Below the pieces are notes generated by a model. It was not told the DNA's origin and made no database searches. It worked only from the letters and a program-made list of their open reading frames with translations. Below, one piece after another: positions 29,973 to 44,559 of a stretch of DNA of 64,000 nucleotides. The position numbers were made by a program, and so were the translations under genes. Numbering within the stretch: the stretch's first letter is position 1; each line of letters begins with the position of its first letter. Origin of the DNA: Methylobacter sp. (GTDB lineage: Bacteria > Pseudomonadota > Gammaproteobacteria > Methylococcales > Methylomonadaceae); the NCBI GenBank assembly GCA_026399025.1, contig JAPLRU010000111.1, forward strand, positions 61,855 to 125,854. The letters run 5' to 3'.

Positions 29973-30277
29973 GATAATCTCTCCATAGAGTTAGTGATTT
30001 TGTTTTCAGAAGGATAACCTGCAATTTTTTAAAAACAACAAAAAAATATATTTATGAAGGTAAATCTCAACAAGCAATCAAACGGGTTTGAGATAACGAG
30101 GCTGCTTGTTACTGTTAGGCTAATAGTCGCAGACGAGTTTGAGTTTGTTATAAATCCGCTTTGCAAAAGCGTCCGAGTTTTAAAAACCACTTGTTTTGCA
30201 AGGTGTTTATGCTATGAATGACGCGGCCTGAGCTTGCAATCTGCGACATTATCCTTTAACTTAGAAAAATATCCGTA

Positions 30278-32299
<2,022 letters not shown>

Positions 32300-33643: not shown

Positions 33644-35572
33644 GTGGAAAATAGCCCATTTAACCGCTTATCGGCAAGCGTGTTTAAGCTGTTGTTGATA
33701 GGACTGTTGCTTATCAGTCGGCCTATTATGGCTCATGACGATGAGGTCTGTCAGTTGCAAACTCAACAGCAGTTTGCGCTACGCCAGTGTATGCAAGTGC
33801 TTGATCCTCATGCCGGACATGCCTTTTCATTGACGCCGGACATTAGCACAAACGCCGGGCTTGCCGATAATCTCAAATCGGCGTCCGGGCTCTGGGTGAA
33901 AATCTCGCTTAACAATACTAACGCAACGGCCCTTAAGCGCTTATTGGCTTTGGGCATTCCCGATGCGTTTTTTCTGTATCTGTTCAAAGCCGATAACGAC
34001 CGCTTGGCAACGCTGTTCAGTCTGGACCAACAAACCACGTTTAGCCAACGCCCGCTAATCAACCGGTTTTTATATGCCGAAGTTGAGCTGGCCGCAAACA
34101 GCACCACGACTTTTTATATTTACTACCGCACCCACGGCAAAACGCCTTTACAGCCGGTTTTGTTAAGCGCTAAAGCACTGGCGCAAGCGGACACCCAAAA
34201 TGACTTGCTTAACGGCATGATTTTTGGCGTGTTAATGGTTTTAGTTTCGGTGGTGATTTTTAATCGGCAAGGACTGCGCCATGCCGACAGCCGTAATTAC
34301 GCACTATTAATTATTTTCAGCTTATTATTCCTCAGCCAAATCCAGGGCTACAACTTTCAGTTTTTATGGCCGGAACAAGCGGTTTGGAACATGCAGGCCC
34401 CCGGCGTTATCAGTATCGGTTTGTTGCTGGCCCACGGCCTGTTCAGCATCGGCTTTTTACAGATGCGGCAGCGGTTTCGACGATTTTTTTACGCCTTCGT
34501 CATCATGATGTGTCTGGCCGTATTCAGCCTACCGTTTGCCGCCCAGCCCTACTTTACCGAGTGGAACTTCATGCTGGCCGTGGTCTATGCCGCCTTTGCC
34601 GCGGCGGTCGGCGTTTTTGCCGTGCGCGGGCAAGTGCCTGCGGCGCCGTTGTATTTATTGGGCGGCATGTCCTTGATCGTTTTTAATGTCATTTTGATGT
34701 CGCTGAGTGTCTTTTGGCGCAACCCTTTTCCGGGGCTGTCGATTTTTACTTACCCGAAAATCGCTTATATGCTGGAACCTGTTTTCTTTATGATCGCGGT
34801 GCTTAATCAACTCCAGCGTTTGAACGAGCAAAAAGCCGAACTTCGCGTTAAACGGCAGGCCGAAACCGAATTGTTGATAAAAGCCGAGCAAGACCGTTTG
34901 GCGGCGCTGGAAGACGCCAAACAACAGCAATTGTTACTGGCCGCGGCCGGCCATGATTTATCGCAACCGTTAGCGTCTATCCGCTTCGCGATGGACGCGC
35001 TACGGGCCAGGGAAGAGCACAATGCGGTCGAGCAACATATCAACACCACCCTGGACTATGCGCAAAGTTTGATTCAGGGCTTAATTCGGCAGGCGCGGCA
35101 AGAGGAAGGCAAGCAATCCGACAGCATTGTCTTATTCGAATTGTTTGATCAACTTCAAAACGAATTTGAAACCGCCGCCGCCAAAAAAGGTTTAAAACTG
35201 AGTCATGTCAGCAACAACATCGAATTAAAAGGTTCGGCCTTAATGCTGCACCGCATGCTCAGCAACCTGTTAAGCAACGCGATTCGTTACAGCCATAAAG
35301 GCCGCGTCGTGTTCGGCGTGCGCCGCCGCTTGCAGCATATTGAAATACAAGTGCTCGATACCGGCGTCGGCTTATTTGAAACCGATTGCCGAATGTTAAC
35401 GGCTCCGTTTCAGCAAGGCCGACACCGCGACAGCGCCGGTTACGGTCTGGGGCTTTTTATTGTGAAAACCTTGTGCAATCAATGCGGCTATGAATTGCAA
35501 GTGGCTTCCGTACTCGGCAAAGGCAGCGTTTTTGCGATTAAAATTCCTGTTCATCATTCGACAGAGCAATGA
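33644..35572 (+). CDS. 7TMR-DISM sensor histidine kinase
   Basis: A 642-residue kinase. A signal-like N-terminal helix (FKLLLIGLLLISRPIMA) leads to a periplasmic 7TMR-DISM extracellular domain (about 30-175; GLWVKISLNNTNAT..., FYIYYRTHGKTPL). Seven hydrophobic segments follow (about 185-385), then a coiled coil (NEQKAELRVKRQAETE). The kinase H-box is AAAGHDLSQPLASIRFAMDALR (about 432-453) of the GHDLxQPL subtype, then NLLSNAIRYSHKG and GYGLGLFIVKTLC. Such kinases sense carbohydrate-like or membrane signals in other bacteria; the ligand here is unknown. The start is GTG; partner is the divergent LuxR regulator. Confidence 0.88.
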   Translation: MENSPFNRLSASVFKLLLIGLLLISRPIMAHDDEVCQLQTQQQFALRQCMQVLDPHAGHAFSLTPDISTNAGLADNLKSASGLWVKISLNNTNATALKRLLALGIPDAFFLYLFKADNDRLATLFSLDQQTTFSQRPLINRFLYAEVELAANSTTTFYIYYRTHGKTPLQPVLLSAKALAQADTQNDLLNGMIFGVLMVLVSVVIFNRQGLRHADSRNYALLIIFSLLFLSQIQGYNFQFLWPEQAVWNMQAPGVISIGLLLAHGLFSIGFLQMRQRFRRFFYAFVIMMCLAVFSLPFAAQPYFTEWNFMLAVVYAAFAAAVGVFAVRGQVPAAPLYLLGGMSLIVFNVILMSLSVFWRNPFPGLSIFTYPKIAYMLEPVFFMIAVLNQLQRLNEQKAELRVKRQAETELLIKAEQDRLAALEDAKQQQLLLAAAGHDLSQPLASIRFAMDALRAREEHNAVEQHINTTLDYAQSLIQGLIRQARQEEGKQSDSIVLFELFDQLQNEFETAAAKKGLKLSHVSNNIELKGSALMLHRMLSNLLSNAIRYSHKGRVVFGVRRRLQHIEIQVLDTGVGLFETDCRMLTAPFQQGRHRDSAGYGLGLFIVKTLCNQCGYELQVASVLGKGSVFAIKIPVHHSTEQ

Positions 35573-35593
35573 TCTGCCGGTTGGTAATTAAAG

Positions 35594-35645
35594 CTTAGGA
35601 ACGCTCATGAAATAACTTCGACAAACTGGCTCCTTCTCCTGCTGG
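35594..35645 (-). repeat. Truncated second copy of the 16.5 kb MITE
   Basis: CTTAGGAACGCTCATGAAAT followed by AACTTCGACAAACTGGCTCC and TCTCCTGCTGG matches the right half of the element at 16519-16624 in inverse orientation. It breaks off at about 35645, where unrelated repeat sequence begins. Confidence 0.65.
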
Positions 35646-35759
35646 ACGATTTGTATGGATGCAGGAGCAGTTGCCGAGGAAGCTCTAACCCAGTCAGCCT
35701 ATCGAGTCCATGTACTATATGACAGGGTGGGGCGGGCAGACATCCTCATGTTTGCTTAA

Positions 35760-36110
35760 TGCCTTGTTCGTGCCAACAAAGGAAGCCTTGGAATTGATGG
35801 GATGAACTTCGCCGACAGATAGACACGTTTTTGTCGAAATTAGCTTAGGAGCTAAAAGACAAGACTTATCATCCAAGGTCGGTACGGCGCGTCATGATAC
35901 CCAAAGCGGATGGCAGCTTGCGTCCCGATTCGCGACCGGTTAGCCCAGAGGGCGGTAAAAGCTGATCATCGGACCGATATTTGAAGCGGATTTCTGACCG
36001 AACTACTCTGGATTTAGACCAAAGAAATCCGCCCACGATGTGATCGATGAAATGTTACATCAAGGTTATACCCCAGTCATTGATGCCGACCTGTCGCTTT
36101 ACTTCGCATT
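35760..36110 (+). pseudogene. Decayed group II intron reverse transcriptase (LtrA-like)
   Basis: Three fragments in three different frames spell RT domains in the right order: CLVRANKGSLGIDGMNFADR (from 35760, then a stop), VMIPKADGSLRP (from 35891), and KLIIGPIFEADF then, past a stop, PNYSGFRPKKSAHDVIDEML followed by HQGYTPVIDADLSLYFA (from 35959). The family reads NKGxxGIDGM, IPKxDGKLRPLGIP, PIFEADFxPxSYGFRPxRSAHDA and VIDxDLxxYFD. The YADD catalytic region and the maturase and endonuclease domains are absent. It abuts the conflict operon's 3' end. Confidence 0.85.
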
Positions 36111-36172
36111 ATTGCGTTTGTCCCGTATTCCATTTCATTCTATACGGGCTACTGCTACTTGCCATGGTAAGT

Positions 36173-39100
36173 TTATTCAGGAGAGATATAAAGGTTAGGA
36201 TATTGTGATCCATCCCCCTCACAATGTAGCTCTAATTTAGCTCGGCTTGGATTATTTGCCTGACTCAACCTTAAATCATATTTTTCTTTTAAAAATTTTA
36301 GATGCTCCACATAACGTAAAGGAAACAGGTTGGTGATGCTGATAAAAGTAATTTCACTCTCCCGTGTTTCATTTTGGAGGATTTCGGGCTGGATATTCCG
36401 GCTACCTTTTAATATGCCATCAAGTTGAGTGACAAAACTGCCCCAATCGCGCGCTATAGGGCGAATAACAGTAAACAACGATAACTTACTGGGTGTTTCC
36501 GAGATCCCCGATCCTCTTTTATTAACCTCCAATGGATTAAAGTTGAGGTAATTACCCGTATAAGTGGAAAGTGCATGGATATAACGGGTGAGTCCTTCTT
36601 CATTGCCGCTAAAATCTTTAGCTAATTTTTCGATGAGGTTGACGTTGAGTTGACGGGGTTGATCTTTTTCAGTAGTGGTGACGGCATTATGAGCCGCTTC
36701 AACGGCCTGCTCACAGCTAATCTCAATCACGTCCATCCATTGTTGTTTTAAAATACGAGCGTTAAGCTGGGTGAAATTAGCGCTTTCGCCTAGTTGGCCC
36801 AGCAAGGCCAGACGTGCTTCTTGCGCTTGATTCCTTTGTATGGCTTTATCTCTAATTAAGCGCTGTGAAAAGTCCCGCACCACGTCCGGCTTGTAAAAAT
36901 AGACCAACAAACGACGCAGGTCATCTTGACCGGTATTTTGACAACGTTCATCAATGCCTTTTTGAAAGTTTTTGTTGATTTCACTTAATAGGCTGAACGA
37001 TTGGTTAACTTCATTGGCAAGTGTTGTCAGTTCCCTAAGAGTTTCGGCTAATAAAACTTTGCTAAATTGCCAAGCCTCCATGTAAGTCAGAGCTTCATAA
37101 CGTGCTTGTAATGATAGCGCTTGGGCATCCAAAATTTTATTGCGTTTGCCGAAAGGGAAAAGGCCGATTTTTGTCCATTCTTTTTGGTTAGATTGTATGC
37201 GCTCTTTTAATGTTTTTTCGGCAATATCCTGATAAGTAACAATCTTGTCGCTGGCTTCTTTTAGGCGCGCATCCAAGCTTTGCAATAATGCCTCTAAAAG
37301 CCGCTTTATTTCGTAGAGTGACTTTGTGCCATTATTCCACTCGGCAAAAAATTCGTTTTCGATACGGCGGCGAATTTCTTTGGCATTTTCAGTATGTGTC
37401 GCTATTTTAATTTCAAAAAATTTGTGAACGCCGTGTTGGCGAAAGGTTTTTTCAAAACGCTCTTGACAGCGATTTTCTAACTCATCTAACCATCGTTCGG
37501 GCTGCGTGGTATCGATAATGAGTTGCTTGGAGTTATTAACAAAGTTTTGCCATTCCATAGAAAAAGGCTGCCAAGTTTTACTGTTAACCTCTTCTAACAG
37601 AATGCCGCGCGACAGTGTTAAGTGCTCATCGGTAATTGCCCAGCGCTCTTTAACTTCTTTTGCATTGACCTCTTGGGAGAATGGAGCGTTTTTAGGTTCG
37701 TCGCGAAATCCCAGCGAATCTGTCCAATTATTGAAGAGCATCTGCAAACCGGCTTGACGGGCGAACTGATAAGTCAGGTATTCTTTAATTTCTACTTCCG
37801 GATAAGCTAAACGTTTTAGACCAAAGGTAAGAAAGCGTTTGCTCCGTTCAGGAGTGCCGGCAATGGCGGATTCAGGTGATCCATCGCCATTTTCGGCGTT
37901 TTCCATTCTAGCAAGGCTTTCCCAGCGCAGTTCGCGTGTTACTACCAATTTTTGAAACAGAAAATCTGCGACAATTTCAGGAATATCTTTTTCTACGTCA
38001 ACCGAAACGCCATTTTCATTTTGATTGAAAAACAAGTAACAACCGTTAAAAGGGTCTTTAAGTAAAAGGCGTTCTTTACTGCCGGTAATGTCATGCGGTT
38101 GCCACGCTCCTACACTAAGTGCATTTAACTCCAATAACGCACTATAGCCATTAGCGTGATAGTTGCCTGTATCCCAATTAGGTTTTGGATGGGTATCGGG
38201 AAGCAAGGTATAAAGAATAATACGATCATAAGGGTACATTTCCCGGATTTGACAAACTGCATCAATAATGGAACCGCTTCCTGTTCCGCCTGCCAAACTA
38301 CAACAAATATGAAAAGTAACCGAGGTGGTGCCGCCTTTTTGTTGGAGATTGCGGGTAAGGCTTTGTACGCGTTCGCGAAAGTCTTTTATTTTACAGGCAA
38401 AAAGAAAGCGGCCTAAACGCCGCTTTTGTCCACCTAACACTTCTCCAACAATGCTGTTAAGAATATCAAGCCATTGGTTTTTATCGCCAATCCAGCCTTG
38501 TATACCAGGATAATTACTCAAGTTTTCTAAGTGTGACGCTAAATCGGCTCCGCGACGAATAAGCAATTGGTTGTGCCTATCTAATTGAACGCTTTTGCCT
38601 AATATTTCCCAGCTCGAGTCATCCAGGGTCATCATCTCGGTACTGGAATCGACGTAGAGATATTCTAAGTTGACGCCTTTAGCTTCTTTTGAATGAAATT
38701 GTTGAAAAACTGATCGTCTAAACGAACGAATAATTTTACCGCCAGTTCCGCCTAGTCCAATGATGAGATGGTTTGAACTCGTTCCCATGTTTTTGCTTGG
38801 GAGTTCGATAGGCAAATCTTCCAGTTTATCAGCCAGCTTTTTATAATTTCTGCCCAATTTCCTCAATATTTTCGCCCCCACTTCCGCAAAAGGTCGCGTA
38901 CTGTCATTTAGCTCAATTCCCTCAGTCAAATGCGGATTCGCCAACAACGCTAAAAAATCCAAACTCTGCCCAAAATGCTGTTCCACAAAATCAGAAACCC
39001 GCGTCAACACAAAAACCGCATCCGCCACAATCACCGAATCTAACAACAACTCCCGCACACCCGCATGAAAATCATATTCCACCCAGGCATGATGCGGTAT

Positions 39101-40465
39101 GCGCTTTAATAATCCCCCTAAAAACACCTCCGCTAAATGCACCTGCTGCGACTGCGGCAACATCAATTTTTGCACCACATTCATCACGGACAAATCCAAC
39201 GGCACAGCCGCTAAATACGCCGCTAATTTCTGCGCGGTGGGCGAGGCAAAACTTTTGAATTGTTTAAGCCGTTGTTCGGCGGTAATTTCAGGCATATTCG
39301 TTTTGGTTGACTGTTCCACAGACGGAATAAAAGCGACTTGATGCTCAAATACCACGCCTTTCAGCCAACCTTCCTTTTTTCCTAACACCAGTTTTGCCCA
39401 GGTTTTCACGATTTCAGGCTCTAGCGTTAACACCGGAATTTTAAAACCTTTTTCTAATTCGCTTATATCATCCATAAACCAAAAATCTTGCCTGTCGAGA
39501 TTTAAAGCTTGATTCAACGCCACTGGCAAGGAAGCGGTAAATCGCGCTTCCTCCGCATAACCTAATGCCGTGCCTTTCCATAATCTAAAGGGCAACATTT
39601 GCATAATACTGACCGGATGCTTGCGACTCCACTGTTGCAATAAGGCAAACACGCCCTGATTGCTATGCCAGGCTTTTGCCACACAATCACTGAATACCAG
39701 GATTAAACGCGTCTGTTGTGGATTAATGATTTCAAAATTCTTTATCACCCGTTGATTGTTTAATACCCGCGCCGTTTCCTGTTCAGTGTCTAATTGATAA
39801 AAATGAATCTTTGTAAACGTGCCTTGCAATTCCAATAATCGGCGGAATTCTTTTAATAAAGGCTGCCAAATCTGCATTGAAATGGCATTGTCTATCAGAA
39901 TAACCAATTCTAACCAGCGTTCCGGTTTACCTTTTAAAATAGGCGCAAAAATCTGAGTTTCAGCAATATAGTGTATGGTTTCTTCTATCGCTAATTCCGT
40001 ATGAAAACGGGAAGGGACAGTTTTACGCAATGGACGAAAGGCGCGATTAAAAGCTAAGGTATTATGTAATAGTGACAATGCGGGCGTTCTAAAAGCTTGC
40101 CCTTTAATGCCGCTGCTATTAATACAGCTATTTTGTTGATGTGGAAAAAGTTGAGATTTTTGTAGTTGTATTGTGGGTTGTGTTTCAGATAGGATGTCTT
40201 GCTTATTTTTAGGAAAATCTTTATTTTTTAACTCCTGTGTATTGTTATTATCGTAAGGGAAATTTTTATTTTCTAAGGCTGATTTATAGTTATTTTCTTG
40301 ATTAGAAATAGTTTCTTCACTAATAATATTTAATTCTTTTTTGTTGACAGATGTATTAATTTGTAATGCTAACCACAATACATCAGCCAATTCTTCTGAG
40401 TCTGGATAAAGCTCAGCTTTATTTAGAACAGAAATAAATCTGCTAATTAAATTTGATTCTTGCAT
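36173..40465 (-). CDS. SAV_2336/vWA-like region fused to a tubulin/FtsZ-like GTPase (1430 residues)
   Basis: The N-terminal 130 residues are low-complexity and Asn/Lys-rich. Residues about 140-340 resemble SAV_2336 N-terminal proteins: AFRPLRKTVPSR, PERWLELVILIDNAISMQIW, ILVFSDCVAKAW, LLQQWSRKHPVSIMQMLPFRLW. The vWA metal motif DxSxS is DNAIS here, so one metal ligand is altered. Residues about 400-550 continue as in those proteins (FASPTAQKLAAYLAAVPL). From about 563 comes a tubulin-like domain: HLIIGLGGTGGKIIRSF, then SLAGGTGSGSIIDAV (the tubulin/FtsZ signature, near 725), and a long helical tail. Proteins with tubulin-like domains of this class occur in conflict-system loci. It is the last of three leftward genes with MoxR and NP-VMAP. 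Confidence 0.82.
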   Translation of the reverse strand: MQESNLISRFISVLNKAELYPDSEELADVLWLALQINTSVNKKELNIISEETISNQENNYKSALENKNFPYDNNNTQELKNKDFPKNKQDILSETQPTIQLQKSQLFPHQQNSCINSSGIKGQAFRTPALSLLHNTLAFNRAFRPLRKTVPSRFHTELAIEETIHYIAETQIFAPILKGKPERWLELVILIDNAISMQIWQPLLKEFRRLLELQGTFTKIHFYQLDTEQETARVLNNQRVIKNFEIINPQQTRLILVFSDCVAKAWHSNQGVFALLQQWSRKHPVSIMQMLPFRLWKGTALGYAEEARFTASLPVALNQALNLDRQDFWFMDDISELEKGFKIPVLTLEPEIVKTWAKLVLGKKEGWLKGVVFEHQVAFIPSVEQSTKTNMPEITAEQRLKQFKSFASPTAQKLAAYLAAVPLDLSVMNVVQKLMLPQSQQVHLAEVFLGGLLKRIPHHAWVEYDFHAGVRELLLDSVIVADAVFVLTRVSDFVEQHFGQSLDFLALLANPHLTEGIELNDSTRPFAEVGAKILRKLGRNYKKLADKLEDLPIELPSKNMGTSSNHLIIGLGGTGGKIIRSFRRSVFQQFHSKEAKGVNLEYLYVDSSTEMMTLDDSSWEILGKSVQLDRHNQLLIRRGADLASHLENLSNYPGIQGWIGDKNQWLDILNSIVGEVLGGQKRRLGRFLFACKIKDFRERVQSLTRNLQQKGGTTSVTFHICCSLAGGTGSGSIIDAVCQIREMYPYDRIILYTLLPDTHPKPNWDTGNYHANGYSALLELNALSVGAWQPHDITGSKERLLLKDPFNGCYLFFNQNENGVSVDVEKDIPEIVADFLFQKLVVTRELRWESLARMENAENGDGSPESAIAGTPERSKRFLTFGLKRLAYPEVEIKEYLTYQFARQAGLQMLFNNWTDSLGFRDEPKNAPFSQEVNAKEVKERWAITDEHLTLSRGILLEEVNSKTWQPFSMEWQNFVNNSKQLIIDTTQPERWLDELENRCQERFEKTFRQHGVHKFFEIKIATHTENAKEIRRRIENEFFAEWNNGTKSLYEIKRLLEALLQSLDARLKEASDKIVTYQDIAEKTLKERIQSNQKEWTKIGLFPFGKRNKILDAQALSLQARYEALTYMEAWQFSKVLLAETLRELTTLANEVNQSFSLLSEINKNFQKGIDERCQNTGQDDLRRLLVYFYKPDVVRDFSQRLIRDKAIQRNQAQEARLALLGQLGESANFTQLNARILKQQWMDVIEISCEQAVEAAHNAVTTTEKDQPRQLNVNLIEKLAKDFSGNEEGLTRYIHALSTYTGNYLNFNPLEVNKRGSGISETPSKLSLFTVIRPIARDWGSFVTQLDGILKGSRNIQPEILQNETRESEITFISITNLFPLRYVEHLKFLKEKYDLRLSQANNPSRAKLELHCEGDGSQYPNLYISPE

Positions 40466-40487
40466 AATAGGTTAAATGAAATATTAT

Positions 40488-40554
40488 GTAGGTTGGGTCA
40501 CACTTATCTTGTTGCACTCCATAAAGTTCACTCCATAAAGTTGACCCAATCTAC
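40488..40554. repeat. Small inverted-end element overlapping the MoxR stop codon
   Basis: GTAGGTTGGGTCA (40488-40500) and TGACCCAATCTAC (40542-40554) are inverted ends with one mismatch, flanking two ACTCCATAAAGTT direct repeats. The right end supplies the stop codon of the MoxR-like gene. Confidence 0.75.
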
Positions 40555-41549
40555 GAATTGGATAGCGATTTCCATAGTGATTCTAGAAGCGACTCTTTAT
40601 CGTCTGATAAATTTATATTTCTTAACGTTAAATGTACGGTATTTAATAATTGGTCATTAGCTAAATCGGTTTTATCGCTACTGTTGATTTTTTTTATAAA
40701 CTCATCAATCAAGTTGTCTATTTGTTGTTTGTATTGAACATAATTTGTATCTGTATGAAAATGTGCCTCTACAATACGTTGTAATTTATCTTTATCAGGC
40801 TGTTGGATTTCCAATCGCAAACAACGGCGTAAAAAAGCCGGTGGAAACTCACGCTCACCATTACTTGTCATAATCACTAACGGAAATTGTTTACAAAGCA
40901 CTCTACCATTTTCAATAGTAATAGCTGTGCCATCATCGCTGGGGAAAATTTCATGTTTACCTTTTAAGCGTTTTAATTCAGGAATTTCAAATTCCCCTTC
41001 TTCAAAAATATGCAGTAAATCATTCGGTAAATCTATATCGCTTTTATCAATTTCATCAATTAATAATACGCGTGGTTTGTTGCTATCATTAGCAAACGCA
41101 GTACCTAATGCGCCTAAACGCAAATATTCGTTTATTTCAGGCGATTTATCACCGTGCAACGATTTATCCTGCAAACGTCCAATAGCATCATATTGATATA
41201 ATCCGTCTTTTAACGTCGTGCGGGTAGTAATTGACCAGCGCAAAACGCCACCCAATTTCAATTCATGTTCAACTGAATAAGCTAACGAAGTTTTACCTGT
41301 CCCCGCTTTTCCTTCCACTAATAAAGGGCGGCGTAAATACAGTGCAGCATTTACTAATTCTATATCTTGATGGTTAGGAATATAACAACTGCCTCTGTCA
41401 TTCTTCTGTTGGTTTTCTTTATTTTGTTTTTTTGCACTAAAGTTTCGCCATGAAGGAGGGGGTGGTAAATCTGAAATCGGTTTTTCACCTCGATAAATAC
41501 ACCATTCTGGAGCTTTTTGTGCTTCTTCTGTACTTTCTGATTTTTCCAT
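40551..41549 (-). CDS. MoxR-type AAA+ ATPase of the conflict operon
   Basis: A 332-residue AAA+ protein. Walker A is LLVEGKAGTGKTSLAYSV (80-87 core), Walker B is VLLIDEIDKSDIDLPNDLL (about 160-178), sensor 1 lies in PLVIMTSNGEREFPPAFLRRCLR, which also includes the arginine finger region. The first 60 residues are a proline-rich and charged tail without a domain (APEWCIYRGEKPISDLPPPP). MoxR ATPases act as chaperones with vWA proteins. It lies 10 bases downstream of NP-VMAP and 85 bases upstream of the vWA/tubulin gene, inside one operon. The last residues may have been set by a repeat element. Confidence 0.88.
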   Translation of the reverse strand: MEKSESTEEAQKAPEWCIYRGEKPISDLPPPPSWRNFSAKKQNKENQQKNDRGSCYIPNHQDIELVNAALYLRRPLLVEGKAGTGKTSLAYSVEHELKLGGVLRWSITTRTTLKDGLYQYDAIGRLQDKSLHGDKSPEINEYLRLGALGTAFANDSNKPRVLLIDEIDKSDIDLPNDLLHIFEEGEFEIPELKRLKGKHEIFPSDDGTAITIENGRVLCKQFPLVIMTSNGEREFPPAFLRRCLRLEIQQPDKDKLQRIVEAHFHTDTNYVQYKQQIDNLIDEFIKKINSSDKTDLANDQLLNTVHLTLRNINLSDDKESLLESLWKSLSNS

Positions 41550-41559
41550 GTTGAAACTC

Positions 41560-43416
41560 CTAACGAAATTCGCTTCCTAAAAAATTTGGTTCTAATTGAG
41601 GTGGCAGTCTATCTGGGTTATCCCAGAATAACGTAATGTATTTTTCTTTATCTCTATGGTGACAGCGAAAATTATAGATACTTTCAGGTAGATTAATAAT
41701 TTGTGTATTTAAGAAATTTGTTATGTCTTTTTCTAAATCAATATCTTTATATTGACAAGACCATAACGCGGCAAAAGCTCCCCACATTATTAGCTCATCT
41801 AAAAATTTTTTTTGGCAAGTTGAAAATTTAAAGTTAAAACCAAAACAACATTTTTTATCTCCTGGCTCGATTTCTGTCATTGATGCTAATATATACTTAT
41901 GTTCTTCTTCTTTTAACCATATTAATTTATCTTTTACTTTCTGATTTAAAGTTTTTTCCTGCAAAATATTTTTCCAATGCTTCTTCCATTTGGGGAAATA
42001 TTTTTTATGCTCTCGTCTATCCAATGCTTGTATAACTAATTGATAGCAGATACCGATTGGATTATTTTCATAACTCTTATTTTCTAATTTATCAAAATGG
42101 TAATACATAAGTTCTTTAGGAAGAATAAACTCTATTAATGGTTCATTTTCCATGCAGATAACTTTTTCTAATAGCCTATCCATTAATGGCTGTAAAGTTT
42201 TTTCATCTTCATTTTTAAGTTCAATATTAGTAATATCATCTGGACAAATATTGATGCCATTTAGCCAAGCCTGTGGAATATATAAACTGTCTTTATCTGT
42301 TTTTAGCTGTATAGTCAAATAACTAGGTTCGTTTTCGTTGCTTTGTTTGATAGAAATATATTTAACAGTCTGTAAGTTTACGTTTAAATTATCAGAATAT
42401 TTTTGTAGCCATTCTATTAGTTTTTTTGCTGCTAAATTTATTATAATGTTTTCTTTTATTAAATGATTAATTACACAAAGTATTGGATATTGACCATTAG
42501 ATAACCATCCTAAGTCAAATAAATAATTCAACGTTTCCAAAAAGCTATTTTGTATACATTCTTGATAAACATATTGCTGACAAATACTATTAAATTTCTT
42601 CAGTTCTTTATCTGATAAATTTTGTGCGATTGGCTTTAGAATTTCTTGCAATTCTTGAAGATTATTGTTTTTATTAAAATCTACAGAAGTTGGTAATAAT
42701 CTTTCTAGCATAGCAAAAGCAAAGGCAGCAGCATGGTGTGCTGCCTTTGGTTGCCAATCGGCATTATCACTTTCTGCTTTATTACTTAATAAATCAGATA
42801 TACCACGAATAACAATACCCTTTACTTGACTATTTGCATGAATTGCAGTTAAAAAACCTATTCCTTCCATTTCTACGGCAATGGCATCACTATATAGTTC
42901 TATTAATTGCTTATAAGTTCGGGAATGCTCAGAAGCTACAACTTTTTCTCCAGCAGCAATAACTCCAATTAATGCTTTTGGTTTAATACCTGTGCTTAAA
43001 TTTTGATTCCAATCAGAGTTATCGGTAATTGCATCGGCTCGTTTAACCAATTTATAGTTAGATTTTCCTACTTCGCTACGTGGCAAAAAAACATTATCTA
43101 CTTCTTTTCCTTTTTCATAACCTTTCATTGTTTCTGCTATAACAACATCACCTAACTTTACATCTTTAATACCACCTGCTACACCCACAAAAAACACATA
43201 GTCAGGATCAAAAAATTGTATTGCCCTTTCTGTTTCCATTGCCGCATTAGCATTACCTTGTCCAGTTTTAGCTAATCCAATTCTCCATCCTTTAAAGCTA
43301 CTTTCTTGATAAATTGTACCTTCATCATGTTCTGTTTCTTTCCAATTTTGGATAAAGCCTTTAACTGCTAGAAACTCGACACTCAAAGCGGTAATGAAAA
43401 CAACAGTTTTGGACAT
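41560..43416 (-). CDS. Nucleoside phosphorylase fused to VMAP-C domain
   Basis: A 618-residue protein. Residues 1 to about 240 form a PNP/MTAN-type nucleoside phosphorylase: ITALSVEFLAVKGF, FVGVAGGIKDVKLGDVVIA, then VEMEGIGFL and VIRGISDLLSNKA, so the acidic residues used by MTA/SAH nucleosidase (MEG glutamate, ISD aspartate) are kept. A helical middle (about 260-370) leads to a VMAP-C-like domain (about 400-600): MENEPLIEFILPKELMYYHFDKL, then NPIGICYQLVIQALDR, a Trp/Lys-rich segment and PESIYNFR. VMAPs are the third component of vWA-MoxR ternary systems, and their N-terminal domain usually carries the effector. The region is strikingly A/T-rich. First gene of the operon. Confidence 0.85.
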   Translation of the reverse strand: MSKTVVFITALSVEFLAVKGFIQNWKETEHDEGTIYQESSFKGWRIGLAKTGQGNANAAMETERAIQFFDPDYVFFVGVAGGIKDVKLGDVVIAETMKGYEKGKEVDNVFLPRSEVGKSNYKLVKRADAITDNSDWNQNLSTGIKPKALIGVIAAGEKVVASEHSRTYKQLIELYSDAIAVEMEGIGFLTAIHANSQVKGIVIRGISDLLSNKAESDNADWQPKAAHHAAAFAFAMLERLLPTSVDFNKNNNLQELQEILKPIAQNLSDKELKKFNSICQQYVYQECIQNSFLETLNYLFDLGWLSNGQYPILCVINHLIKENIIINLAAKKLIEWLQKYSDNLNVNLQTVKYISIKQSNENEPSYLTIQLKTDKDSLYIPQAWLNGINICPDDITNIELKNEDEKTLQPLMDRLLEKVICMENEPLIEFILPKELMYYHFDKLENKSYENNPIGICYQLVIQALDRREHKKYFPKWKKHWKNILQEKTLNQKVKDKLIWLKEEEHKYILASMTEIEPGDKKCCFGFNFKFSTCQKKFLDELIMWGAFAALWSCQYKDIDLEKDITNFLNTQIINLPESIYNFRCHHRDKEKYITLFWDNPDRLPPQLEPNFLGSEFR

Positions 43417-43778: not shown

Positions 43779-43952
43779 ATGATAGACCAACAACAAACAA
43801 AACTCGAAATATTATTAAAAGAATACGAAACCGTCAAAGCTGAACAAGAAGCCCGAATTGGCTTTCGTGACAACTTACTCTACGCCATCTCAAAAGAAGG
43901 TGTTTATCTATCCTTCCTGATTCTACCTTGGGTAAGCTTAATCATGGGCTAG
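43779..43952 (+). pseudogene. Truncated small membrane protein (internal deletion)
   Basis: A 57-codon frame: a charged start (MIDQQQTKLEILLKEYETVKAEQEARI), then GFRDNLLYAI and LSFLILPWVSLIMG. The GFRDNLLY and LPWVSLI stretches look like the two ends of longer membrane proteins of defence-associated type, joined after loss of the centre. Only one hydrophobic segment remains. It is probably a remnant rather than a working gene. Confidence 0.5.
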
Positions 43953-43966
43953 ATTATATATAGTCA

Positions 43967-44559
43967 ATGACCGAACCCCAAAACCCCATCGTCATTTTTC
44001 AAACCGAAGACGGTTGCTCACAGGTTGTGGTTAATGTCATTGAGGAGACTGTTTGGCTATCCCAAGCGCAGATGTGCGCATTGTTTGATAAGAATAAGCG
44101 CACGGTTTCCGAGCATATCCGCAATATCTTCAAGGAAGGCGAATTACAGGAACAGGCAGTTGTCCGGAATTTCCGGACAACTGCCGCCGACGGTAAGTCT
44201 TACGAGGTCTATCACTATAATCTGGATGTCATTATCTCCGTCGGCTATCGGGTGAAATCCCGTCGCGGTACCCAATTTCGTATCTGGGCGAACAACATCC
44301 TCAAGCAATACTTAATCCAAGGCTATGCGCTGAATGAACAAAAACTCCAGGCGCAGCAGGAAAAGTTCGCCGATTTGAAACTGGCGATTGCCCTAGGTTT
44401 TTGGAACGTCACCAGTATTTGTATAACGCGGAAGGCGAAAAACGGATTGCCGATAATGCACTCGTGGCGTTTACCTTGCTGATTGCGGAAAGCAAGCCGG
44501 ATGAGCGAGAGACTATTGTTAAGGTAATTATTAATTTGATTAACGATAAAAACGGTTGA
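43967..44559 (+). pseudogene. RhuM-family protein, frameshifted and internally deleted
   Basis: The first 135 residues match RhuM/virulence-protein family sequences: IVIFQTEDG, VWLSQAQMCALFDKNKRTVSEHI, VRNFRTTAADGKSYEVYHYNLDVIISVGYRV and GTQFRIWANNILKQYLIQGY. After KFADLKLAIAL the frame shifts; the family's C-terminal end continues in another frame as FLERHQYLYNAEGEKRIADN, then ALVAFTLLIAESKPDE, to a stop at 44559. Family members are about 330 residues, so roughly 130 residues in the middle are missing. RhuM proteins occur in genomic islands, often next to defence genes. A 103-base dispersed repeat starts two bases after the stop. Confidence 0.8.

Follow-up and report, generated by a model that had tools for sequence, protein, structure and literature searches.

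Three leftward genes in a 64 000-nucleotide stretch of Methylobacter sp. DNA (assembly GCA_026399025.1, contig JAPLRU010000111.1, forward-strand positions 61 855 to 125 854; the whole stretch is called the window, and coordinates are counted from its first letter) make up a VMAP ternary conflict system, an operon kind (MoxR–vWA–VMAP) described by Kaur et al. 2020 (PMC7159879). The vWA protein of this system has apparently received, in its C-terminal module slot, a tubulin-like module captured from a stand-alone gene. Our preferred reading of the whole, a tentative one with a probability of roughly 0.45, is that of an abortive-infection defence in which detection of an invader by the vWA–tubulin protein would lead the nucleosidase carried by VMAP to destroy a nucleotide.

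The genes lie on the minus strand at 43416–41560, 41549–40551 and 40465–36173, with gaps of 10 and 85 bases between them; coordinates, strand, lengths and gaps agree with the original prediction, a note on this DNA made from its letters alone. The genes and their parts are as follows.

41560–43416, minus strand: gene 1, PNP/MTAN-type nucleosidase domain, helical middle and VMAP-C, 618 residues (PF01048 and PF20028 above cut-off)
40551–41549, minus strand: gene 2, MoxR-type AAA+ ATPase, 332 residues (AAA_5, AAA_2 and AAA above cut-off)
36173–40465, minus strand: gene 3, vWA/SAV_2336 core and Tubulin_2 fused in frame, 1430 residues (NF041121 and PF13809)
38777–40465, minus strand: vWA (SAV_2336) part of gene 3, residues 1–563 as cut here (from the ends of relatives' BLAST alignments)
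38777–38821, minus strand: junction linker, residues 549–563, between vWA core and tubulin (from core end and tubulin start)
36176–38776, minus strand: Tubulin_2 part of gene 3, residues 564–1430, starting at codon 2–3 of the stand-alone gene; C-terminus short by ∼130 residues

The original prediction had already placed the trio among the VMAP ternary systems, and we accept this on VMAP-C (PF20028, residues 412–601 of the gene 1 protein, 49.2 bits against a cut-off of 27), on the MoxR gene and on gene order. All four families named there for profile searches (VMAP-C, SAV_2336, Tubulin_2 and the PNP_UDP_1-type PF01048) scored above cut-off. Since the name SAV_2336 has 0 occurrences in the main text of PMC7159879, we surveyed its link to VMAP on plasmids: used as a tblastn query, the vWA part of gene 3 found matches in 57 plasmid records, and 12 loci, picked for variety from 40 listed, were fetched. 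A MoxR or AAA ATPase gene stood directly upstream of the SAV_2336 gene in all 12, and VMAP-C directly upstream of MoxR in 10, the same VMAP, MoxR, vWA order as in the window; joint occurrence of the three gene families had been set beforehand as the test. Of the two loci with no VMAP-C match, one had only a 354-base open reading frame (ORF) before MoxR; in the second, a 2-kb gene in that place matched nothing. Gene 2 scored 12.4 with the bpMoxR model of beta-propeller systems, below its cut-off of 27, and NF047784, the MADS MadB equivalog with a cut-off of 475, gave the same ATPase 67.5 bits. The PNP-VMAP protein showed no EAD domain (Pfam, E up to 1); no diversity-generating retroelement (DGR) was seen beside the trio, judging from the ORFs and families scanned; PADLOC returned nothing for the 1430-residue protein. 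The three proteins are predicted to act as one complex against invaders.

The N-terminal domain of the gene 1 protein (PF01048, residues 5–237, 83.5 bits, cut-off 25.1) matches MTA/SAH nucleosidases (MTANs) by sequence, MTAN being the nearest among solved structures; the model of the domain matches MTAN structures too (best 4x24, template-modelling score TM 0.81 by target). Residues E14 and E184 were kept in 120 of 120 aligned PNP domains and D208 in 119 of 120, all three being present in the window; we take them, by eye, to correspond to E12, E174 and D197, presumably the catalytic residues of the E. coli MTAN. At 75 positions conserved in at least 93% of the 120 domains (119 relatives and the window), the window departs once, with G39S. 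Among the best 120 of 1661 matches the same domain was joined to TIR, NB-ARC, EAD, FGE and VMAP-C modules; P0008 and P0041 are further PNP–VMAP-C proteins (alignment A2 includes P0041 twice), and the PNP-VMAP protein is present on 4 contigs among the matches listed. Because it is fused to such varied modules and is found on vWA proteins as well (3 of the best 120 of 223 vWA relatives), the PNP domain behaves as a portable effector. Two PADLOC models that come with no cut-offs matched it, 'Effector, PN-superfamily' with 50.4 bits and PDC-M60C with 57.7 bits. With its portability and its conserved catalytic-type positions, the nucleoside-cleaving domain is plausible in the role of effector that the original prediction had proposed for it. 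The primary work on PNP-domain effectors that degrade (d)ATP is reportedly that of Rousset et al. 2023. A published table enters PF01048 under 'degradation of (d)ATP/cell death' for CBASS, Detocs, pAgo, DRT8 and NLR-like systems (PMC10952713), and a meeting report names ATP nucleosidases as effectors (PMC9966839). By analogy, ATP would be our favoured guess for the substrate of gene 1.

The gene 2 protein matched AAA_5 with 30.8 bits (cut-off 22), and AAA_2 and AAA likewise exceeded their own cut-offs. Aligned with 12 plasmid MoxR/AAA proteins, it differs at 5 conserved positions; one of these departures, P82A, falls within Walker A, of which the glycines and the lysine are kept (motif names by eye). 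In the gene 3 protein, NF041121 (SAV_2336_NTERM) matched residues 22–500 over the whole profile length with 385.9 bits (cut-off 200); a MIDAS-like D192-N-A-I-S196 is present, and 1 of 35 conserved columns of the vWA part departs. The idea of the original prediction that a tubulin stands in for a plain vWA protein finds no support: the SAV_2336/vWA core is complete, and the tubulin is appended behind it in the C-terminal module slot. No Pfam vWA model matched the window's vWA half directly (E up to 5). Parts of the SAV_2336 profile, mostly positions 90–280 around the MIDAS-like motif, weakly matched vWA-sized ORFs in 61 other genomes of the class, below cut-off, and the 3 of those ORFs that were scanned proved to be VWA_CoxE (CoxE-type vWA). 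The vWA label, a provisional one, draws on the NF041121 match, on the weak CoxE-type matches and on gene order. Within the vWA gene, the third-position G+C content was 0.17–0.29 for residues 1–195 (39881–40465) and 0.38–0.59 from there to about residue 650, a step hinting at an older mosaic.

The remainder of gene 3 matched PF13809, Tubulin_2, which we take to be the FtsZ-like family 1 (residues 567–905, 209.1 bits, cut-off 27). The core fold was modelled with high confidence as CetZ/tubulin-like and the glycine-rich GGTGSG loop is kept; judging from sequence and model, this is a predicted GTPase-family domain, the core fold and constraint of which look intact. Its best 120 of 1055 relatives had 993–1036 residues, the size of a stand-alone protein, the best of them being 92% identical; no PF13809 occurred among the best 120 of 223 vWA-half relatives, where the C-terminal slot held FGE-sulfatase, RRM-ATPase, Roc-COR-TIR, caspase, CHAT or TPR modules, or, in 3, PNP. 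BLAST alignments ended at residues 548–550 in 93 of these 120 vWA relatives, which marks where the conserved core stops. On the tubulin side, the protein resembles the stand-alone one from codon 2 of the latter onwards (residue 564), and the DNA resembles the stand-alone gene L002 from codon 3. With some 15 linker residues between core end and tubulin start, the two parts are joined in the natural module slot. In an unrooted tree of 12 sequences the window's tubulin grouped with P0121 at a support of 97; the branch lengths were 0.054 and 0.029. A tubulin match was present in 12 of 237 genomes of the host family; only the host has SAV_2336, so that within the family only the host's tubulin can be joined to it. 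Taken together, the tubulin was apparently captured from a stand-alone gene and appended in the vWA protein's module slot. We also weighed the ATG of residue 560 as a start of its own; no ribosome-binding site was evident by eye. In viral contigs, 0 of 21 pattern matches were confirmed as tubulin relatives and 0 of 90 as vWA relatives.

The original prediction had missed that the tubulin part is a chimaeric addition with a lost C-terminal tail. Comparison with relatives showed that the tubulin lost ∼130 C-terminal residues together with its usual membrane partner: it stops 125–138 residues short of the C-terminal end in 53 of 53 aligned relatives, and the gene for a membrane protein stands directly upstream in 9 of 10 stand-alone tubulin loci (one of them the query's own), where the window has the vWA part instead. 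The closest comparison is with the stand-alone 1000-residue Tubulin_2 proteins of Methylococcales, L002 being 83% and L003 (Methylovulum psychrotolerans) 72% identical to the module; unlike the window, both have the membrane protein gene directly upstream and ∼130 more C-terminal residues. The host's own genome gave no match to the membrane partner in a search made with no positive control, and no second copy of the tubulin, nor did the missing tail turn up there; a single tail match past the stop (33 residues, four stop codons) was taken as chance. What is left of the module reads through 867 codons with no stop. It departs at 2 of 164 conserved columns (median in relatives, 1), and at residue 723, adjoining the nucleotide loop, it has serine where at least 97% of relatives have glycine. 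Polarised changes, synonymous to nonsynonymous, numbered 116:66 on the window branch versus 131:65 for L002 (p 0.59).

Two papers assign opposite roles to the parts of VMAP systems: either VMAP senses and the vWA module strikes, as the describers of the family have it (PMC7159879), or the reverse, as put forward for DGR-linked systems, where the C-terminal module of vWA is hypermutated and proposed as sensor and the VMAP N-terminus is proposed as effector (Doré et al. 2024, PMC10907252). The locus keeps the two sides apart, with an enzyme of known chemistry on VMAP and a cytoskeletal module, with stand-alone relatives, on vWA. As it is the effector-like enzyme that sits on VMAP and the cytoskeletal module that sits on vWA, the second polarity fits better; we place the vWA C-terminal slot on the sensor side because it is the part exchanged among relatives. 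In our preferred reading, the tubulin-like module would serve for recognition or as bait, either by binding an invader protein or by being disturbed in its assembly. The contact between vWA and VMAP would then be remodelled by MoxR at the expense of ATP hydrolysis. The MTAN-like domain, released or clustered, would cut an adenine nucleotide or nucleoside at its N-glycosidic bond, and the cell would be halted before the invader multiplies. The domains, the gene order, the kept enzyme motifs, the position of the fusion and the loss of tail and membrane partner are features of the sequence; every step of action we infer.

A number of points weigh against this reading. Sensing is placed in VMAP, and effectors on the vWA C-terminus, by the original authors (PMC7159879), and our literature searches returned no experiments on any VMAP system. 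The slot itself can look like an effector site: the close vWA relative P0245 has in it a Roc-COR-TIR, effector-like in look, and the 3 vWA relatives with PNP have an effector-like domain exactly where the window has its tubulin. The tubulin module, shortened as it is beside intron debris, may be a broken passenger; part of the constraint measured on it is older than the fusion, and a frameshift splits L002, the gene with which it was compared. The fused 1430-residue protein was not among the best 120 matches listed for either half. On the VMAP side, ATP is a putative substrate, and by sequence the nucleosidase has MTAN as its nearest relative among solved structures; the structure model of the PNP-VMAP protein has a mean pLDDT (predicted local distance difference test) of 59.5 over the whole, the VMAP half being poor and unreliable beyond about residue 240.

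Integrated decoys exist in plant immune receptors, and one could speculate that the locus is an integrated-decoy receptor caught soon after its birth. A tubulin taken from a membrane-linked operon (caspase-linked in distant relatives) would have been fused, with neither partner nor tail, into the recognition slot, so that an invader gripping or disturbing the cytoskeletal machine would trip a nucleotide-destroying suicide switch. We consider this specific version unlikely; if the module is a decoy, bacteria would have in this system an equivalent of the integrated decoys of plants. Decoy-type domains have been proposed for VMAP systems (PMC7159879).

The original prediction had a different use for the same parts: by polymerising, the tubulin-like GTPase would form a threshold switch or scaffold, clustering the complex and turning on the phosphorylase. 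The confidently modelled CetZ/tubulin-like core with its GGTGSG loop speaks for it, as do the multimerising effectors proposed for VMAP systems (PMC7159879); the tail common to all aligned relatives is gone, however, the usual membrane partner is unmatched in the genome (by the search mentioned above), the glycine-to-serine change of residue 723 lies next to the nucleotide loop, and no evidence of polymerisation for this tubulin family was found in the literature consulted. Such a switch is a doubtful explanation in our view. We give similarly low odds to the module being an inert passenger, a deletion or insertion having joined the vWA and tubulin genes and an intron having then cut off the tubulin's end. 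The shortened C-terminus does adjoin the remains of a group II intron, the opposite side has a partial RhuM gene, and the fusion is found in the host only among 237 family genomes; yet the reading frame is kept across the join, which coincides with the natural module slot and with tubulin codons 2–3, the tubulin frame stays open throughout, and its conserved columns and synonymous share are no different from those of a stand-alone relative.

Less probable still is the polarity of the family's describers, in which VMAP would sense, its nucleosidase would make a second messenger, and a tubulin effector would assemble, trap or remodel membranes. It was put forward for PNP-VMAPs and vWA C-terminal domains in general (PMC7159879), and FtsZ-like family 1 proteins have been tied to vWA and membrane remodelling (PMC2875224). 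No gene for a messenger receptor was seen beside the trio, however (ORF list, search not exhaustive), the tubulin's membrane partner is unmatched in the genome, and the activity listed for PNP domains elsewhere in defence is degradation of (d)ATP (PMC10952713). That the assembler joined separate vWA and tubulin genes is very improbable: the fused protein is indeed absent among the best 120 matches of either half, versus 4 contigs for the PNP-VMAP protein, but a 651-base stretch across the join is single copy in the genome, as is gene 3, the frame is open across it, and no other copy of the tubulin or its tail was found there.

Parts of this arrangement have precedents. The systems of Kaur et al. 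2020 share with the window the VMAP-MoxR-vWA operon, an N-terminal enzyme on VMAP and an exchangeable C-terminal module on vWA, and PNP-VMAPs and rare vWA fusions with FtsZ/tubulin are listed among them (PMC7159879). The original prediction called the arrangement unusual; PNP-VMAPs and FtsZ/tubulin–vWA proteins had both been reported already, the latter as rare. The window differs from those systems in pairing a PNP-VMAP with a long Tubulin_2, in that the module is traceable to a clade of stand-alone genes, and in that no EAD was found and no DGR seen. The DGR-diversified VMAP systems likewise have an exchangeable vWA C-terminal module as proposed sensor, with C-lectin where the window has tubulin and with the DGR that was not seen in the window (PMC10907252). 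FtsZ-like family 1 operons have a tubulin-superfamily gene, often with vWA and membrane proteins (Makarova and Koonin 2010, PMC2875224); in them the tubulin has a gene of its own, whereas in the window it is fused to a SAV_2336 core within a VMAP operon. Tubulin-domain proteins in vWA-related systems close to CRISPR loci are mentioned in a 2023 screen (PMC10910872). PNP effectors of CBASS, Detocs and NLR-like systems resemble gene 1 in using PF01048 as a portable immune effector (PMC10952713); the window's PNP, unlike these, is joined to VMAP-C and has MTANs as closest solved structures. A paper describing a PNP-VMAP together with a vWA–Tubulin_2 protein was not found in the literature searches made. 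The kind of system is known, variation of the module is known and a tubulin module is listed as rare; what marks this member is an apparent capture event that can be read unusually well.

Tubulin_2 genes were also seen in other settings. In the host family there is a conserved six-gene operon, a caspase–tubulin system, of DUF4384, a 196-residue protein, a caspase (PF00656), a membrane protein, a 1059-residue Tubulin_2 and a TPR protein; the 6 loci with enough DNA, among them the query's own, all had the complete set (loci L085:926-9435, L086, L094, L095, L096 and L097; partial in L021; L070). A Paraburkholderia plasmid has the caspase, DUF4384, tubulin and TPR genes of this operon, which appeared in none of the best-ranked literature matches. 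On a Meiothermus taiwanensis plasmid (L069, NZ_CP021131.1), a tubulin-like gene has a vWA gene on one side and, on the other, an unnamed gene and then BrxL; a Swt1-type HEPN protein is encoded upstream. By gene content, this would be a BREX-like context for Tubulin_2.

The trio sits in a foreign A/T-rich island, as the original prediction had noted: its genes have a G+C content of 0.27–0.42 versus 0.50–0.53 in three surrounding genes. The decayed intron and the partial RhuM gene that the prediction had seen on the two sides were both recovered.

35849–36111, plus strand: group II intron reverse transcriptase remnant, frames broken, adjoining the shortened tubulin end (TIGR04416, two pieces searched separately)
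43967–44482, plus strand: partial RhuM gene at the island border (PF13310, positions 1–71 of 252)

The two TIGR04416 reverse transcriptase/maturase pieces are in different frames (E 8.3e-6 and 5.5e-5), far below the full-length cut-off, and Rfam gave nothing at the remnant (E up to 1). The trio is not general in the host group, an idea we rejected: among 237 genomes of the family, and again among 369 of the class, VMAP-C and SAV_2336 each exceeded the cut-off in 1, the host every time. The host is probably a methane-oxidising gammaproteobacterium. In 14 control genomes VMAP-C was found in 0 and SAV_2336 in 1, below cut-off. In 20 kb of G027, a genome of the same genus, the left-flank response-regulator-like and histidine-kinase-like genes (named by eye) are kept, and alignment ends at window position 35550. 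A further 13 window proteins, those of the trio and of the right flank among them, had no match in these 20 kb, so that the search for an empty site in the genus gave no result and the island's ends are approximate.

A 57-residue ORF at 43779–43952, upstream of the partial RhuM gene, has a hydrophobic end and no family match over cut-off. Just downstream of the histidine-kinase-like gene lies a dispersed repeat (35586–35680) with 42 further partial matches in the genome. An ordinary thiamine pyrophosphate (TPP) riboswitch occupies 30274–30389, upstream of a gene resembling thiC by eye.

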